From contig QWPB01000184.1 in the NCBI GenBank assembly GCA_003671275.1, forward strand, positions 1-64,000: 64,000 nucleotides of DNA, in the 5' to 3' direction. This DNA comes from Planctomycetota bacterium. Lineage in GTDB: Bacteria > Planctomycetota > Planctomycetia > Planctomycetales > Planctomycetaceae. A program made the position numbers and the translations under genes. The stretch's first letter is position 1. Every line of letters begins with the position of its first letter. A model generated the notes under the pieces. It was given only the letters and a program-made list of their open reading frames with translations, did no database searches and was not told the DNA's origin. Of the stretch, positions 29,154-36,515 are shown one piece after another.

Positions 29154-30605
29154 ATGCCTAACAAATCTGTCTGGAAGCGTGAAAGTCACACCAAGATCGT
29201 TTCCACGGCAGGGCCGGCCTGCGACTCGATCGAAAAGCTCCAGGAATTGATTCTGGCGGGAGTCGATGTCTTTCGACTGAATACGGCCCACGGGTCGAGC
29301 GAACAGCATCAGGTCCGGCTGGATCGGATTCGTGCTGCCGAGAAGCGGGTCGGGCAGCCGGTCGCCGTACTGGTCGATCTGGCCGGACCCAAAATGCGAC
29401 TGGGTACCATCCCTGGGGGGCAGGTCGATCTGATTATCGGAGATCAGGTCACTTTCATTCGCGGTCAGGAAACGGACGATCCGCACGTTCTGACCTGTGT
29501 GTATGAACCGCTGCTGGATGAGCTGGAAGCCGAAAACCGCGTGATGCTGGCCGACGGGACCGTCGCGCTCCGCGTAATCTCAAACGATGGGCAACGTGCC
29601 GCATGCGTGGTGACCCAGGGGGGCACACTCCGCAGCAAGCAGGGAGTCAATCTGCCGGGAGTCAAGCTCAAGGCGGCGGCCATGAGCGACCTGGACCGGG
29701 CCAATGCCGTCTGGGCGGTGGGTGCGGGAGCCGACTACATCAGCCTCAGCTTCGTGCGGACGGCCCAGGACATCCTCGATCTGAAGTCGCTGATCGCCGG
29801 GACAAAATCGGGTAACGCTCCGCACGTTATTGCCAAGATCGAAAAGCCCGAAGCGCTCGACAATCTGGAGGCCATCGTCGCCGCCAGTGACGGAATCATG
29901 GTCGCCCGCGGCGATCTGGGTGTCGAGGTGGATATCGCCGAGATTGCCATCGTTCAGAAGCGGATCGTGGCGGCTTGCCATCGCGCCCGGAAGCCGGTGA
30001 TCATCGCGACGCAGATGCTCGACAGCATGCACCACTCCCGAATCCCGACCCGCGCTGAAGCGACCGATGTGGCCAATGCCATTCTGGACGGGGCGGACGC
30101 CTGCATGCTCTCTGGAGAAACCGCCATCGGAGAGTATCCCGTGCAAGCGGTCGAGATGATGCATCGCATCGCCGTCTCCACGGAACCGCTGCTGCACACC
30201 TACTCTCGATTCACCAGCGATGACAAGCACCCCACCCCGGGTGTCAGCCCCATCACGGACGCCGCCGCACGCTCGGCCGGACGCCTGGCCGAGGAACTCG
30301 GGGCCAAGCTGGTAATCGTGGCCAGCTCCACCGGACGGGCGGCACTCAGCCTTTCCAAGAACCGTCGTTTTGTTCCGACGATTGGCGTCAGTGACAGCCT
30401 GTCTTCGCTGCGGCGGATGTGTCTGTACTGGGGCGTGATCCCTGTGCCCGAGGCTCCAGCCCACGAAGACCGGGAGCTTCTCGATTATGTCATTGGTCGG
30501 GCCCTCGAAGCGGGCGACCTGAAAAAGGGCGATCGAATTATCCTGTTGTCTGGAACTGGTTTACCGACCAGCCGACACAACGTCGTGCTGGTTCACGAAG
30601 TCTGA
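29154..30605 (+). CDS. pyk: Pyruvate kinase
   Basis: 483 residues. Makes pyruvate and ATP from phosphoenolpyruvate and ADP. Landmarks: TKIVSTAGPACDS, VARGDLGVEV, KPVIIATQMLDSMHHSRIPTRAEATDVANAILDGADACMLSGETAIG, and a C-terminal domain with GDRIILLSGTG. Two variants stand out. The usual RLNFSHG reads RLNTAHG, losing a Ser that contributes a potassium ligand, and the usual DTKGPEIRTG reads DLAGPKMRLG, with Lys at the position that in potassium-dependent enzymes is Glu. Together they indicate a potassium-independent enzyme. ATG at 29154 lacks a clear ribosome binding site. Confidence 0.95.
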   Translation: MPNKSVWKRESHTKIVSTAGPACDSIEKLQELILAGVDVFRLNTAHGSSEQHQVRLDRIRAAEKRVGQPVAVLVDLAGPKMRLGTIPGGQVDLIIGDQVTFIRGQETDDPHVLTCVYEPLLDELEAENRVMLADGTVALRVISNDGQRAACVVTQGGTLRSKQGVNLPGVKLKAAAMSDLDRANAVWAVGAGADYISLSFVRTAQDILDLKSLIAGTKSGNAPHVIAKIEKPEALDNLEAIVAASDGIMVARGDLGVEVDIAEIAIVQKRIVAACHRARKPVIIATQMLDSMHHSRIPTRAEATDVANAILDGADACMLSGETAIGEYPVQAVEMMHRIAVSTEPLLHTYSRFTSDDKHPTPGVSPITDAAARSAGRLAEELGAKLVIVASSTGRAALSLSKNRRFVPTIGVSDSLSSLRRMCLYWGVIPVPEAPAHEDRELLDYVIGRALEAGDLKKGDRIILLSGTGLPTSRHNVVLVHEV

Positions 30606-30844
30606 CACCGGACCGGTACGTCAGATCCCACCCGGGGCGACCCTCCTTCGGCGGTTTCTGCCCGTAGAGGCTGCGGGGAACGGGCCGCTGACCCGACGGT
30701 CTTGACCCACAGGAAACGGTACTCGTACTGTCCCGTCCCTTCCCCTGCGGAGGGCGGCGGGGCATTGCGCCCAGCCCCTTCTGCCCGGTGTGGCGCCGAA
30801 TCCTCTCTTCGCCGCTCCGGTTTCTCCCGCCAAGGATCGGCGAC

Positions 30845-32677
30845 ATGCATTCCACTCGCTCTGCTGCATGGTGGCTGCTCGGCTTGATGGTCCTATCCGC
30901 GGGATGCCAGGCACTGGATCTGGATTTCGAACTGCCGGGGATGTTGAACCCCGACAACCGCCGTCGAGCCCGCGTCACCGACGCCATCCGGGGAGAAAAG
31001 GGACATTCCCGGCTGATCGGCGACTATATTTCCATTGGCGGTGACACCGTCCGCATGGTCCAGGGAGTCGGTCTGGTGATCGGCCTCGACGGAACCGGAG
31101 AAGACCCGCCCGCCACCAACCAGCGCAAGATGCTGCTGGAAGAAATGCGCCGCCGCCGGGTCGACGAACCCGAAACCCTCCTGCGCTCTCCCAATACCAC
31201 CATGGTGGTGGTCACCGCTTATATCCCACCGCTGATCCGGACCGGAGACCCGCTGGATGTCGAAATCAAACTGCCGGACGGCAGTCTGACTAAGAGCCTC
31301 AAGGGCGGCTATCTTCTGCCGAGCTTCCTGCGCGAGTATGCCTACCTGCCGGAAGGTGGCCTGCGAGAAGGGCGCGAACTGGGGCTGGCGGGCGGCCCGA
31401 TTCTCCTCAACGGGGACGATGCCAATGGTCTGCTGCGGGGAGTGATCCCCGGAGGTGGACAGTTCACCGGCACGGAACGCAACCTGACGATCCGGCTGCG
31501 GGAGGATTACCGAAGCGCCAAAATGACCGTCCGCATCGCCGACAAGATCGGTTCCCGCTTCCATGGATATGACTCGCACGGCATCAAACGTCCGCTGGCC
31601 AAGCCCAAGACCGATCAAGCCATTGAGCTGTTTGTCTCCGACCAGTACCGCGATAATTACCCTCGTTTTTTGCAGGTAATCCGAAACATCCGCCTGACCG
31701 AATCCCAGGTTGACAATCAGCTGCGTCTTCAGGAGTTGCAGAGTGCCCTGATGAAGGGGGACACCAGTGAACAGGCGGCGCTGGAACTGGAGGCTATTGG
31801 CACGAACGCGATTCCGCTGCTCAAGGAAGGGCTTCAGGCCATCGAACAGGAAGCCCGCTTCCGGGCTGCCGAAGCCCTCGCTTATCTCGACGATCCGTCG
31901 GGAGTGGAGGTTCTAAAGGAAGTCGTGGAAGACGAACCAGCCTTCCGGGTATTCGCCCTGGCAGCACTCTCGACGCTGAAGAATGGCGAATCCGTTCTGG
32001 CGATACGTGATCTGATGAATCACTCCGATATTGAAGTGCGTTACGGTGCCTTCCGGGCCCTGTCGATTGCCTCTCCCAACGATCCGTCGATCCTGACGCA
32101 CAAATTCAAGTACGGCTTCAAAATGCACTTTGTGGAATCCACAGCCTCGCCAGCTGTCCACCTGACTCGCCGTCGGCAGCAGGAGATGGTGCTCTTTGGT
32201 GCGGATCAAAAACTTGCCACGCCAATCGTTCTCAGAGCTGGCAAGAACATCCTGGTGCAATGCCCCGACAATAGCGACCGCGTGAAGATCTCGCTGTTCC
32301 TCCCCGGGCAGGCCAACCAGGAGTTGGTCACGACAACCCAACTCTCCGATATCGTCGGGGCCGCCGTGGAACTGGGAGCGACATACCCGGACATCTATGA
32401 CCTGCTCAAGCAGGCGGAAACCCAGCGAAATCTCAGCGGGGAGCTGGCCATTGACCGCCTGCCACGGGCGGGCCGGACCTTTGATCGTCCCGATTTGGTG
32501 GAAGGCCCCAGCTCCGAAACGGTGGGCAGCCCGGCCCTCATGCCGAACATGTTCGACATCGATCACAGCGGGCTGGAAGTCGAATCCGAGATGGACGCTG
32601 GTGCCGAGGCTCCGAAATCCGCCGCCGAGGCTTCGGCCCAGGAGCAGATGAATGGAGTCAGCTTCGAGGTCCAGTAG
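30845..32677 (+). CDS. FlgI-like lipoprotein with HEAT-like repeats
   Basis: 610 residues. The signal peptide ends in a lipobox LSAGC (Cys21). Residues about 60-270 resemble the flagellar P-ring protein FlgI: SRLIGDYISIGGDTVRMVQGVGLVIGLDGTGEDPP followed by LEEMRRRRV, PNTTMVVVTAYIPP, GDPLDVEIKLP and GGYLLPSFL. This is followed by HEAT-like alpha repeats (IPLLKEGLQAIEQEARFRAAEALAYLDDPSGVEVLKEVV) and a further beta region. No flagellar gene is nearby. FlgI proper is a periplasmic non-lipidated ring protein, so this is a divergent homologue tethered to a membrane. ATG at 30845 has AAGGA about 10 bases upstream. smc follows 85 bases later. Confidence 0.82.
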   Translation: MHSTRSAAWWLLGLMVLSAGCQALDLDFELPGMLNPDNRRRARVTDAIRGEKGHSRLIGDYISIGGDTVRMVQGVGLVIGLDGTGEDPPATNQRKMLLEEMRRRRVDEPETLLRSPNTTMVVVTAYIPPLIRTGDPLDVEIKLPDGSLTKSLKGGYLLPSFLREYAYLPEGGLREGRELGLAGGPILLNGDDANGLLRGVIPGGGQFTGTERNLTIRLREDYRSAKMTVRIADKIGSRFHGYDSHGIKRPLAKPKTDQAIELFVSDQYRDNYPRFLQVIRNIRLTESQVDNQLRLQELQSALMKGDTSEQAALELEAIGTNAIPLLKEGLQAIEQEARFRAAEALAYLDDPSGVEVLKEVVEDEPAFRVFALAALSTLKNGESVLAIRDLMNHSDIEVRYGAFRALSIASPNDPSILTHKFKYGFKMHFVESTASPAVHLTRRRQQEMVLFGADQKLATPIVLRAGKNILVQCPDNSDRVKISLFLPGQANQELVTTTQLSDIVGAAVELGATYPDIYDLLKQAETQRNLSGELAIDRLPRAGRTFDRPDLVEGPSSETVGSPALMPNMFDIDHSGLEVESEMDAGAEAPKSAAEASAQEQMNGVSFEVQ

Positions 32678-32762
32678 TCTTTCCCGGCATCTCGGCCCGC
32701 CCCGTCCTGATGAACTTCCGATCGATCTCCTCTTCTGAAGCCCTGACCGATCGATCTGCTCC

Positions 32763-35700
32763 ATGCTCAAGTCCCTCGAACTTTTTGGTTTCAAAAGTTT
32801 CGCGGACCGAACTGTGTTCGAGTTCGCGGCGGGGGTAACGTGCGTCGTCGGTCCCAACGGCAGCGGCAAGAGCAACGTCGTCGATGGCATCAAGTGGCTA
32901 CTGGGGGATCAAAGCCCCAAGAGCCTCCGCGGCACGGAGATGACGGATGTCATCTTCAACGGATCGAATGGCCGCAAGCCGAGTGCCTTCTCGGAGGCAG
33001 TTCTCACATTCGACAACTCGAATAAGCTGTTTGCCTTCGACGCAGCCGAGGTTCAGGTCGGTCGCCGCCTGTATCGCAGCGGCGACTCAGAATACCTGAT
33101 TAACAAACAGGTCGTCCGTCTGAAAGACGTGAGGGATCTGTTTCTGGGGACCGGTGCGGGCACTGCGGCCTACAGCATTATCGAGCAGGGGCGGGTCGAC
33201 CAGATCCTGCAATCCAACCCCGCCGCTCGCCGGCAGGTCTTCGAAGAAGCCGCCGGAATCTCCCGCTTCAAAGCCAAACGAATTGAGGCCCAAAAGAAAA
33301 TCGAACGGGTTGACCAGAATCTGCAACGACTGGCCGACATCGTCGACGAAGTGGAAGCCCAGCTGAACGCCACCCGCAGCCAGGCCAGCAAGGCGGCCAA
33401 GTATCGCGAGATTGCCTCCGAGTTGAAGACGCTGTGGACGGGACTGGCCGCCGATGACGCTCGTCTCTGGTCTGCGGAACTGACCACACTCCGGGCGAGT
33501 GAAACCACGGCCCGCGAAAGAGCCGAAAAACTGGCAGCCCGCGTTGAGGAATTGGAATCACAGGTTCGACAGTTCGAATCCGAACATGAGGTGATCGAAC
33601 AACGGACCCGCGATCTCGAACGAATGTCGGCCTCCAACCGGGAGGGAATCGCCTCTCAGGAAGCCACGATCCGTCACCAGACTTTCCGCCTGCGGGAACT
33701 GCAAGCCGATCTCGAACGCCTCCGTAAACAACGATTGGAGCTGACGAATCGCGCTGGCTCGGTCGCCCGCGAGATCGAAGAAACACGCCTCCGACTCGCT
33801 GAGTATTCCGCCAGTTTCGCCACCCGGAAAGAGGCCATGCTGGGGCGTGACGAGGAATTGCGATTCCTTCAAAACGAACTGGACTCGGCGCGCGGCCGCA
33901 TTCGAACACTCCGTCAGCAGCGCGACGATCTGGGGCTGCGTGTTCAAGCCGCCACAACGCGCATCGCCACTCTGGAACTGCAGCATCAGACCGCACGCGA
34001 GGCTTTGGACCAGACCCGCAGCCGCATCGATCAGCGACTCGCCGAACTCTCGGCAGCCCAGATGGAACTCGAGTCGCGGCGGACCGCACTGGAAAAAGCC
34101 GACTCCACCAACCGGAAGACGCGTGACGAACTGGAGATGCTGCGATCGGAACGATCGGCCCTGATTCAGGAACAGTTGCAGACGGATAAGCGGCTGGCGG
34201 AACTGCGGGAAAAACGCAGCGCCGCCCTCGCCCGGCTCAACGTGCTGCAAGACCTCGAACGACGACAGGAAGGAATCGGGCTCGGTGTCCGCGAGATCTT
34301 GCGACGGGCCGAATCTCTCCGTGAGGCTCCCTGGTCCAATATCCTCGGAACGGTCGGAGATCTGCTGGATACCTCGCTCGACACCGCCCCCCTCGTCGAA
34401 TTGGCCTTGGGCGATCGAACCCAGATCCTGGTTGTCAACCAGTTGCGGCCTCTGCTGGACTACCTCAACCGGGGCGAAGGGCAACTGCTTGACCGCGTGG
34501 GATTCATCGAGCTGCGAACCGCTCAGGGCGTCGCGCGGTCGCGAACATCGACGCCGGACTGGCTCGAAATCTACAGCCTCGACGGACGGGACTGGCCAGA
34601 CCTCAGCCGTGAACCGGGAGTCATTCAGCGAGCCGACCAACTAGTCACCGAAACTCTACGGACCCCCGGACTGGCGGCTCGCCTGCTGGCTGATACCTGG
34701 ATCGTGTCCACACTGGATCGAGCCATTCAACTGGCGGCCACCGTGGGTCAGGGCTGCCGCTTCGTGACATTGCAGGGCGAACTGGTGACCGGCGATGGCG
34801 TATTGTTCATTGGTGCGGTGCCGGTGGATGGTGCGGTCCTCTCCCGCAAGAGTGAGTTGCGAAAGCTCCGCAGTGAAGTCGTGCGATTTGAGCGGGCGAT
34901 CGATTCCGATGTCGAACGCCTGGCGTTGCTGGCCCGAACGCTGGAGTCCCGATCCGGACGGCAGGACGAAATCGAAGTCGTCGCCCAACAGCGGTCTTCA
35001 CAGGTAACAGAAGCCTCGCACCGGTTGACCACTCAATCCGAAGAGGTCACTCGCCTGACATCCGCCCTGCAAAAATTCGAGCTAATCGCGGCGGAACAGG
35101 AACAAAAATCCCTCTCGATCGAATCGGAACTGCAGTCGGTCCGCACCCGGCAAGAAACCGAATTGCGAGAATCCGACGAATTGGCCCGCACGGTTCAGCG
35201 GCACGAAGCCGAAGCCATCGAGATCGAAACCGCCCTACAGTCCGTTCATCAACTGGTCCGCGAAGAACAGCTGGAACTGGCCAAACACGAGGAACGGCTC
35301 AACAGCCTGCGGGAAACACAGAATCGACTCGGACAGGACCAGCTGCAGAGAGTCGAGCAGGAACAGGAATCCACGGAACGGTACGACGCGTTGCTCAAGG
35401 CTCAGGAACAATCGACCTTACTGCTGCTGCGTACGGAATCGATCATCGCGGAGCGTATGCGGCAACAGGAACGGGTCCAAGCCGACCTGCGAATTGCCAC
35501 GCGAGAACGCGAAGCCCTGCGTGAAGAACGGAACCGCCGCTCACGGGAACTAGATGACTGGCACCGGCAACGCCGCAAGGCCGTCGAGACGGCCCATGAG
35601 ACCCAATTCAAGATCCGCGAGATCGAACAGAAACAAACGGTCCTCGCCCAGCGCATCGACGAAGAATACCAGCTGTCGTTGGATCAGCTGGTTGCATCCC

Positions 35701-36515
35701 CGGCCTCGGCTTATCGCGATTACCTGCAACAGCGGTCGGGGGGCTCCCTCGAACAGGTCAGCGAAGAGCCCGTCATAGAGCGCCCCCGGTTGCCGGAAGC
35801 GCCCGATCCCTGCTACGACGAAATTCGCCCCGACCTGGAAGCGGCAGTGGAACGGCTCCGCCGCCGCATCAAGATGATGGGACACGTCAACACCGATGCC
35901 CTGGCGGGACTTGAAGAAATCGAGAACCGTTACAACGAACTGAGCGCCCAGCTGCGCGACCTGCAGGAGGCCAAGAGTGCTCTGGAAGACATCATTCGCC
36001 GGATCAACACGGAGTGTAAGCGGCTGTTCATTGAAACGTTTGAAACGATTCGCCAGAACTTCCTGATCCTGTTTCGCAAGCTGTTCGGCGGGGGGGATGG
36101 AAACATCATTCTGGAGAATCCCGATGACGTACTGGAGTGCGGAATCGAGATTGTGGCCAGGCCTCCCGGGAAAGAGCTGCGCAGCCTGAGCTTGCTCAGT
36201 GGGGGCGAGAAGACCATGACCGCTGTCGGTCTGCTGTTTGCGATGTTCAAAAGCAAGCCCAGCCCGTACTGCATTCTGGACGAAGTGGACGCGGCCCTGG
36301 ACGACGCCAACGTGGGACGGTACGCGAATGTTCTGAAGGAGTTCGCGTCGATGACTCAGTTCGTCGTCATCACGCACCGCAAGCCCACGATGACCGCCGC
36401 AGATTTTCTGTACGGCGTCACCATGGAACAGGCCGGAGTCTCCAAACGCATGGCCGTTCGTTTCGATCAGGTCGGCGAAAATGGCGAGATCCTCGCGAAC
36501 GCCAAGGCCGCCTAG
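32763..36515 (+). CDS. smc: Chromosome segregation ATPase SMC
   Basis: 1,250 residues, the full-length arrangement: Walker A GPNGSGKS (30-37) in the N-terminal head, long coiled coil, hinge at about 520-690 ([12 protein letters not shown] ... [10 protein letters not shown]), second coiled coil, and C-terminal head with signature LSGGEK (1145-1150) and Walker [13 protein letters not shown] (1169-1180). Condensin core that is loaded on DNA by ParB at parS sites and organises the origin region; a parS-like site lies about 12 kb downstream. ScpA and ScpB are not encoded nearby. The start [17 protein letters not shown] is canonical, although no clear ribosome binding site precedes it. Confidence 0.97.

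Follow-up and report, generated by a model that had tools for sequence, protein, structure and literature searches.

The flagellar P ring is a 26-fold ring assembly. Its protein, FlgI (PF02119; PDB entries 7bgl, 7cbl, 7nvg and 8z5n), is exported and has three domains, the upper inner ring (IRU), the outer ring (OR) and the lower inner ring (IRL). The lipid-anchored outer-membrane partner of the P ring is the L-ring lipoprotein FlgH (PF02107). HEAT_2 and PBS-lyase HEAT-like repeats (PF13646 and PF03130) form helical repeat arrays.

We found a FlgI-related protein of different build in a member of the Planctomycetota. The window (the whole stretch of DNA that we analyzed, 64,000 nucleotides) encodes a 610-residue protein that, with its relatives, we call the long form. 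Like FlgI, the long form is predicted to be exported, has domains in the order IRU, OR and IRL-like, and retains the glycine-rich core motifs GxGLVxGLxGTG and SLxGG. Unlike FlgI, it has a HEAT insert at the OR/IRL junction, a predicted lipid anchor and a charged FlgH pocket; its gene has no flagellar neighbors, adjoins smc, and is present in genomes without FliF and FliP. Among the papers listed on FlgI in Planctomycetes, on FlgI paralogs, and on the P ring with HEAT repeats, none concerned such a protein, judged by title or by title and opening of the abstract. Passages retrieved on the P ring and Rhodopirellula mention P-ring genes in a planctomycete genome and do not describe the long form. 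The features of the locus are as follows.

29154..30605, + strand: pyruvate kinase, upstream neighbor, not conserved (PK, 2.7e-99)
30845..32677, + strand: gene for the FlgI-HEAT predicted lipoprotein (P0001), 610 aa (ORF, Pfam, AlphaFold model, Foldseek)
30845..30904, + strand: predicted lipoprotein signal peptide, codons 1-20, the last being the candidate lipid-bearing Cys20 (sequence and pattern)
31016..31708, + strand: FlgI IRU and OR domains, aa 58-288 (PF02119, hhalign, VIA)
31640..32071, + strand: HEAT-type helical repeats, about aa 266-409, at the OR/IRL junction (HEAT_2, HEAT_PBS, model helices)
32066..32548, + strand: FlgI IRL-like C-terminal region and conserved tail, aa 408-568 (hhalign, VIA)
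32763..36515, + strand: smc, 1250 aa, conserved downstream neighbor (SMC_N 6.4e-66, SMC_hinge, synteny)

Fold and domain architecture

The Pfam FlgI profile matched residues 58-288 of the window protein (E = 3.8e-19; 69.2 bits against a cut-off of 25.3; profile positions 2-229). Both FlgI motifs quoted in a first-pass annotation of this DNA, QGVGLVIGLDGTGE and TTMVVVTAYIPP, are present in the ORF, and the FlgI-like N-terminal region claimed there was borne out. The best sequence match in the PDB was a flagellar P-ring chain (7bgl; E = 6.1e-11). The protein missed the NCBIfam P-ring equivalog/subfamily cut-offs (60.2 bits against 300 for NF003676 and 30.3 against 557 for NF009430), and the Pfam scan gave no match to FlgH. 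Two HEAT profiles scored above their cut-offs: HEAT_2 at residues 307-370 (8.1e-10; 39.3 bits against 27.7) and HEAT_PBS at residues 338-363 (3.2e-4). The length of 610 residues is counted from the ATG at 30845; a start at the in-frame GTG at 30788 would make the protein 19 residues longer.

An AlphaFold model of the window protein, built from 63 sequences, had a mean pLDDT of 93.1 and a pTM of 0.90. The four best Foldseek matches of the full model in the PDB were all P-ring FlgI (top E = 2.0e-12). The top match spanned 494 alignment columns for a target of 306 residues, which is the expectation if the model comprises a whole FlgI with a long insert. By VIA, model residues 36-265 superimposed on FlgI (7cbl_a; Z = 15.8, 202 aligned, rmsd 7.9), and residues from approximately 264 onward matched alpha-Rep HEAT proteins (Z = 8.2). 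Model helices at 246-389 of the mature chain correspond to the HEAT array. The modeled protein has the FlgI fold for which the first-pass annotation had proposed structure prediction as a check.

We found that FlgI homology resumes behind the HEAT array. By hhalign, the N-terminal part of the long form aligned with mature FlgI residues 3-223 (E = 2.1e-28) and the C-terminal part with residues 237-336 (E = 0.0019). When the C-terminal part was modeled separately (pLDDT 87), the top three VIA rows were all FlgI (entry residues 247-365; Z = 6.9-6.6), the best of them with 81 aligned residues and an rmsd of 3.0 (Z = 6.9). Foldseek with this domain alone gave no match under E = 0.001; its FlgI match, at E = 0.11, is not significant by itself. 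Support for an IRL-like domain is modest, with hhalign and VIA in agreement. In FlgI, OR comprises residues 1-11 and 160-230, IRU residues 12-159, and IRL residues 231-346 (given in part of PMC8298488). Because of these borders, we placed the HEAT array of approximately 145 residues at the OR/IRL junction. In the model, then, the array is inside the FlgI fold, between the second and third domains, and all three FlgI domains are recognizable; its setting within an exported FlgI fold distinguishes it from the HEAT_2 and PBS-lyase repeat arrays that it resembles. The alpha repeats of the first-pass annotation are present as HEAT repeats, inserted into the fold rather than appended after it. Taken together, alignments and model establish a predicted order of export signal, IRU and OR, HEAT insert, and IRL-like domain.

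A search against PHROG gave no match, and we rejected a phage origin of the protein. The interval 30500-33000 yielded neither a sigma-70 promoter nor a + strand terminator, a result that weighs little. Long open frames on the - strand of the window (30893-31618 and 31913-32893) are most likely a by-product of codon use and show no sign of being genes.

Predicted lipid anchor and changed surfaces

The N-terminus of the window protein is a typical export signal ending in ...LMVLSAGC20Q, with LSAGC at residues 16-20. The lipobox Cys noted in the first-pass annotation is Cys20 in our prediction, and fits a PROSITE-type lipobox pattern. The same pattern matched 41 of 60 long forms and 4 of 28 canonical FlgI proteins; the remaining 19 long forms had no match to it. 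A stricter pattern matched 33 of 61 long forms, with the window protein not among them. We infer that the window protein is lipidated and, with Gln at position +2 after the Cys, tethered to the outer membrane. Three long-form N-termini (L047, L048 and L049) have twin-arginine-like SRR motifs near the lipobox region, and some orthologs may be exported folded.

We found that the surface contacting FlgH has changed. The hydrophobic FlgH-binding pocket of FlgI is formed by positions 18, 22, 46, 50, 103 and 104 (described in part of PMC8298488), at which the window protein has Q, L, E, R, L and P, respectively. Position 46 is charged in 50/60 long forms (0/28 canonical planctomycete FlgI), position 50 in 40/60 (2/28 canonical), position 18 in 35/60 (0/28 canonical) and position 104 in 23/60 (2/28 canonical). 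Positions 22 and 103 retain their hydrophobic character. Judged by these residues, the FlgH-binding pocket is lost in the long forms and is charged instead. Lys95, a residue close to the rod in Salmonella, is replaced by Thr in 43 of the 60 long forms and is still Lys in the window protein. Rod-facing Lys63 says little, since it is conserved in just 4 of the 28 canonical proteins.

Our results are tentatively explained by the long form being an ancient FlgI paralog that acts outside the flagellum, as an outer-membrane-tethered scaffold or collar in the peptidoglycan zone with a HEAT docking platform; we consider this account nearly as probable as not. The protein's own lipid would take over the anchoring that the flagellar P ring receives from FlgH; the long form may combine the anchoring role of FlgH with FlgI. 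The OR domain has been likened to peptidoglycan-binding and secretin N3 domains (in part of PMC8298488), and because of this domain we would place the protein in the peptidoglycan zone. The HEAT array would point downward into the periplasm and offer partners a docking platform. Retained IRU and IRL contacts may allow self-assembly into an arc or ring that would form a collar around some structure other than the flagellum; a ring is possible because all three FlgI domains persist. Assembly of the flagellar P ring uses FlgA (stated in part of PMC8298488). FlgA is absent from the home genome, so a ring, if formed, would assemble differently. If this account is true, a P-ring-type protein works without a flagellum, and the outer rings of the motor are reusable like its export core.

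The same surfaces could be read differently. The charged pocket, the missing FlgA and the Thr that most long forms (43 of 60) have in place of rod-facing Lys95 would fit an envelope lipoprotein that stays monomeric, with the FlgI fold serving only for binding and no ring being formed. This is unlikely, if the strongest of the alternatives, as all three FlgI domains and both the GxGLVxGLxGTG and SLxGG motifs have been kept.

Pairing with smc

smc starts at 32763, on the same strand, 85 bases after the stop codon of the window gene. At 18 of 19 loci with the long form in the family, smc was downstream on the same strand; the other locus (L033) ends at a contig edge. No other neighbor family was common to more than 6 of these loci. 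Among the best 80 named loci, which overlap in part with the 19 (some contigs are shared), the pairing was found at 73. Six of the seven misses had under 0.7 kb to the contig end, and L102 is a true exception. At 40 loci from other families, an smc-like gene was downstream on the same strand at 34 (33 of them within 290 bases) and was not found downstream at L144, L146, L151, L167, L178 and L180. Neighborhoods were surveyed for seven of the eight genomes (all but G379) that have the long form without FliF and FliP (below); smc was directly downstream in six and 2.8 kb away in G274. The position before smc reported in the first-pass annotation was confirmed, and the survey of gene neighbors that it had suggested extends the pairing to distant relatives.

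This near-fixed place before smc suggests co-expression with a cell-cycle function. The adjacency may also reflect no more than a shared promoter. A further alternative holds that the long form belongs to the division or segregation machinery and links the envelope to SMC-dependent chromosome segregation, with gene order reflecting function. Consistent with this, the adjacency persists across two deeply split clades while other neighbors change. However, a periplasmic lipoprotein cannot directly touch cytoplasmic SMC and would need an unseen inner-membrane partner, and adjacency by itself is weak evidence and is broken at 6 of the 40 loci from other families. Of all the readings this one, drawn from gene order, is the boldest, and we regard it as improbable.

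It can be joined to the collar account. Division without FtsZ has been described in Planctomycetota (in part of PMC12283558). A P-ring paralog might have become a collar of the outer membrane and peptidoglycan that anchors itself and has a HEAT docking platform, have been inherited together with smc from a time before two major clades of the phylum diverged, and couple envelope construction or FtsZ-less division to chromosome segregation. We give this combined proposal a rather low probability.

Distribution of the long form and of flagellar genes

We found that the long form is nearly universal in the class. It was present in 243 of 248 class genomes and in 131 of 131 genera (match at E <= 1e-40). 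In a sample of the phylum (392 genomes), the 40 class members listed all matched with at least 429 bits, and 35 of the 352 genomes outside the class had a long form of greater divergence (E below 1e-25). A first scan of the genome collection, with the single protein as query, had found no relative. Nine further long forms, seven of them from outside the class, were tested by Pfam; all nine scored over the FlgI cut-off and all had HEAT matches. In one of the nine (L174), the HEAT score was below its cut-off. The class has an unusual envelope and cell division, and a protein almost universal there should have a basic function. For Planctopirus limnophila, genetics is available and essential-gene data have been published, which makes the question directly testable; the main text of the essential-gene report (PMC10632474) does not mention flagell*, P-ring or smc.

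A tree of FlgI domains was made with the same 60 long forms and 28 canonical planctomycete FlgI proteins that were used for the residue counts, and with E. coli FlgI. L017 and L029 (canonical, partial or fused) were left out, as was L036 from the long set. All 60 long forms grouped together, apart from the 28 canonical proteins and E. coli FlgI; support was 0.90 at the rooted node, and the split itself had 1.0. Within the long-form clade, the two main halves were the class and the divergent group. Because all long forms cluster in this way, the tree points to a single early origin, before the class and the divergent group split.

The home genome (5.03 Mb, 99.2% complete) has no FlgI match other than the window protein, and no match for FlgH, the rod/hook domain Flg_bbr_C or FlgA. 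Its FliF-like and FliP genes are on contigs other than the window contig. FliO, FliP and an FlhB-like protein are present (L053 16162-17661 and L204 8342-11595). The gene is indeed far from any flagellar gene, as the first-pass annotation had it, and the genome contains neither a separate FlgI nor a full flagellar set of which this could be the sole flgI. Within the family, 60 of 61 genomes had a FlgI match and 59 of 61 had the long form, most with a separate canonical FlgI as well. The two genomes in which it was not found, G010 and G014, are 78-79% complete; in G020 and G031 the long form was cut short. FlgH and Flg_bbr_C were both absent from 15 of the 61 genomes, and 14 of these 15 kept the long form.

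Outside the class, eight genomes with the long form had no match for FliP, and all eight also had none for FliF (G184, G360 and G379, which are single contigs and 98-99% complete, and G274, G113, G395, G410 and G421). These comparisons show the long form to be long conserved, independent of the flagellum and of FliF and FliP, and linked to smc. The relation to a flagellar component and the non-flagellar role proposed in the first-pass annotation stand, given the FlgI fold and the lack of FlgH, rod/hook and FlgA; an adaptor that spans the envelope in connection with a type III or flagellar core does not hold in general, as the long form persists in the eight genomes.

The family genomes without FlgH and rod/hook matches have a FliF-like gene (14/15) and FliP (15/15), and with the long form in 14 of them, the protein could form the outer ring of a type III core that derives from the flagellum, has no rod (FliF-FliG, FliH, FliI, FliP and FliQ) and is kept by non-flagellate planctomycetes. 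Against this, the eight genomes outside the class, three of them nearly complete single contigs, have the long form and neither FliF nor FliP; in the home genome the long-form gene is on a contig separate from FliF and FliP; and no core gene recurs beside it. Co-occurrence led us to reject a ring of the retained core as the general role, and we consider the proposal quite unlikely.

Near-universal presence in the class would also suit a structural component of the planctomycetal crateriform pits, in which the outer membrane is joined to the inner. This seems very unlikely. The long form is present in G403, probably the Phycisphaeraceae species Phycisphaera mikurensis, for which pits are scored as 'no'. 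According to parts of two reports (PMC8882080 and PMC7783415), the described Phycisphaeraceae are without pits, and together these observations weaken a role in pits, even though those of P. limnophila touch the inner membrane (in part of PMC5394234).

That the window protein is merely a modified flagellar P-ring protein of its host is hardly credible: the home genome has no other FlgI match and keeps FliF, FliO, FliP and FlhB-like genes, but FlgH, rod/hook and FlgA are unmatched in this 99%-complete genome (on which ground we rejected it), most flagellate relatives also have a canonical FlgI, and the long form occurs without FliF and FliP in eight genomes.

Three further observations concern flagellar genes of the family. 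Non-flagellate genomes keep a type III core without rod or hook (L186, L187, L188, L190, L191, L192, L193 and L195). At L195 10078-16575, a 571-residue protein comprising FliF and both FliG domains is followed by FliH, a T3SS-type ATPase, FliP and FliQ. For Planctomycetes, the retrieved passage of PMC3459982 lists flagella and no non-flagellar type III systems. A flagellate relative (G038) encodes a further FlgI paralog of 605 aa (L036 6142-7956); it too is a FlgI-domain protein, and differs from the long form in that a weak FlgA-like domain precedes the FlgI domain and a HEAT match is absent. The canonical FlgI proteins of the family (L003-L032) fall into two separate tree groups, scoring approximately 320-390 and 160-260 bits. 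Both G012 and G026 seem to possess a member of each group, which suggests two flagellar systems.
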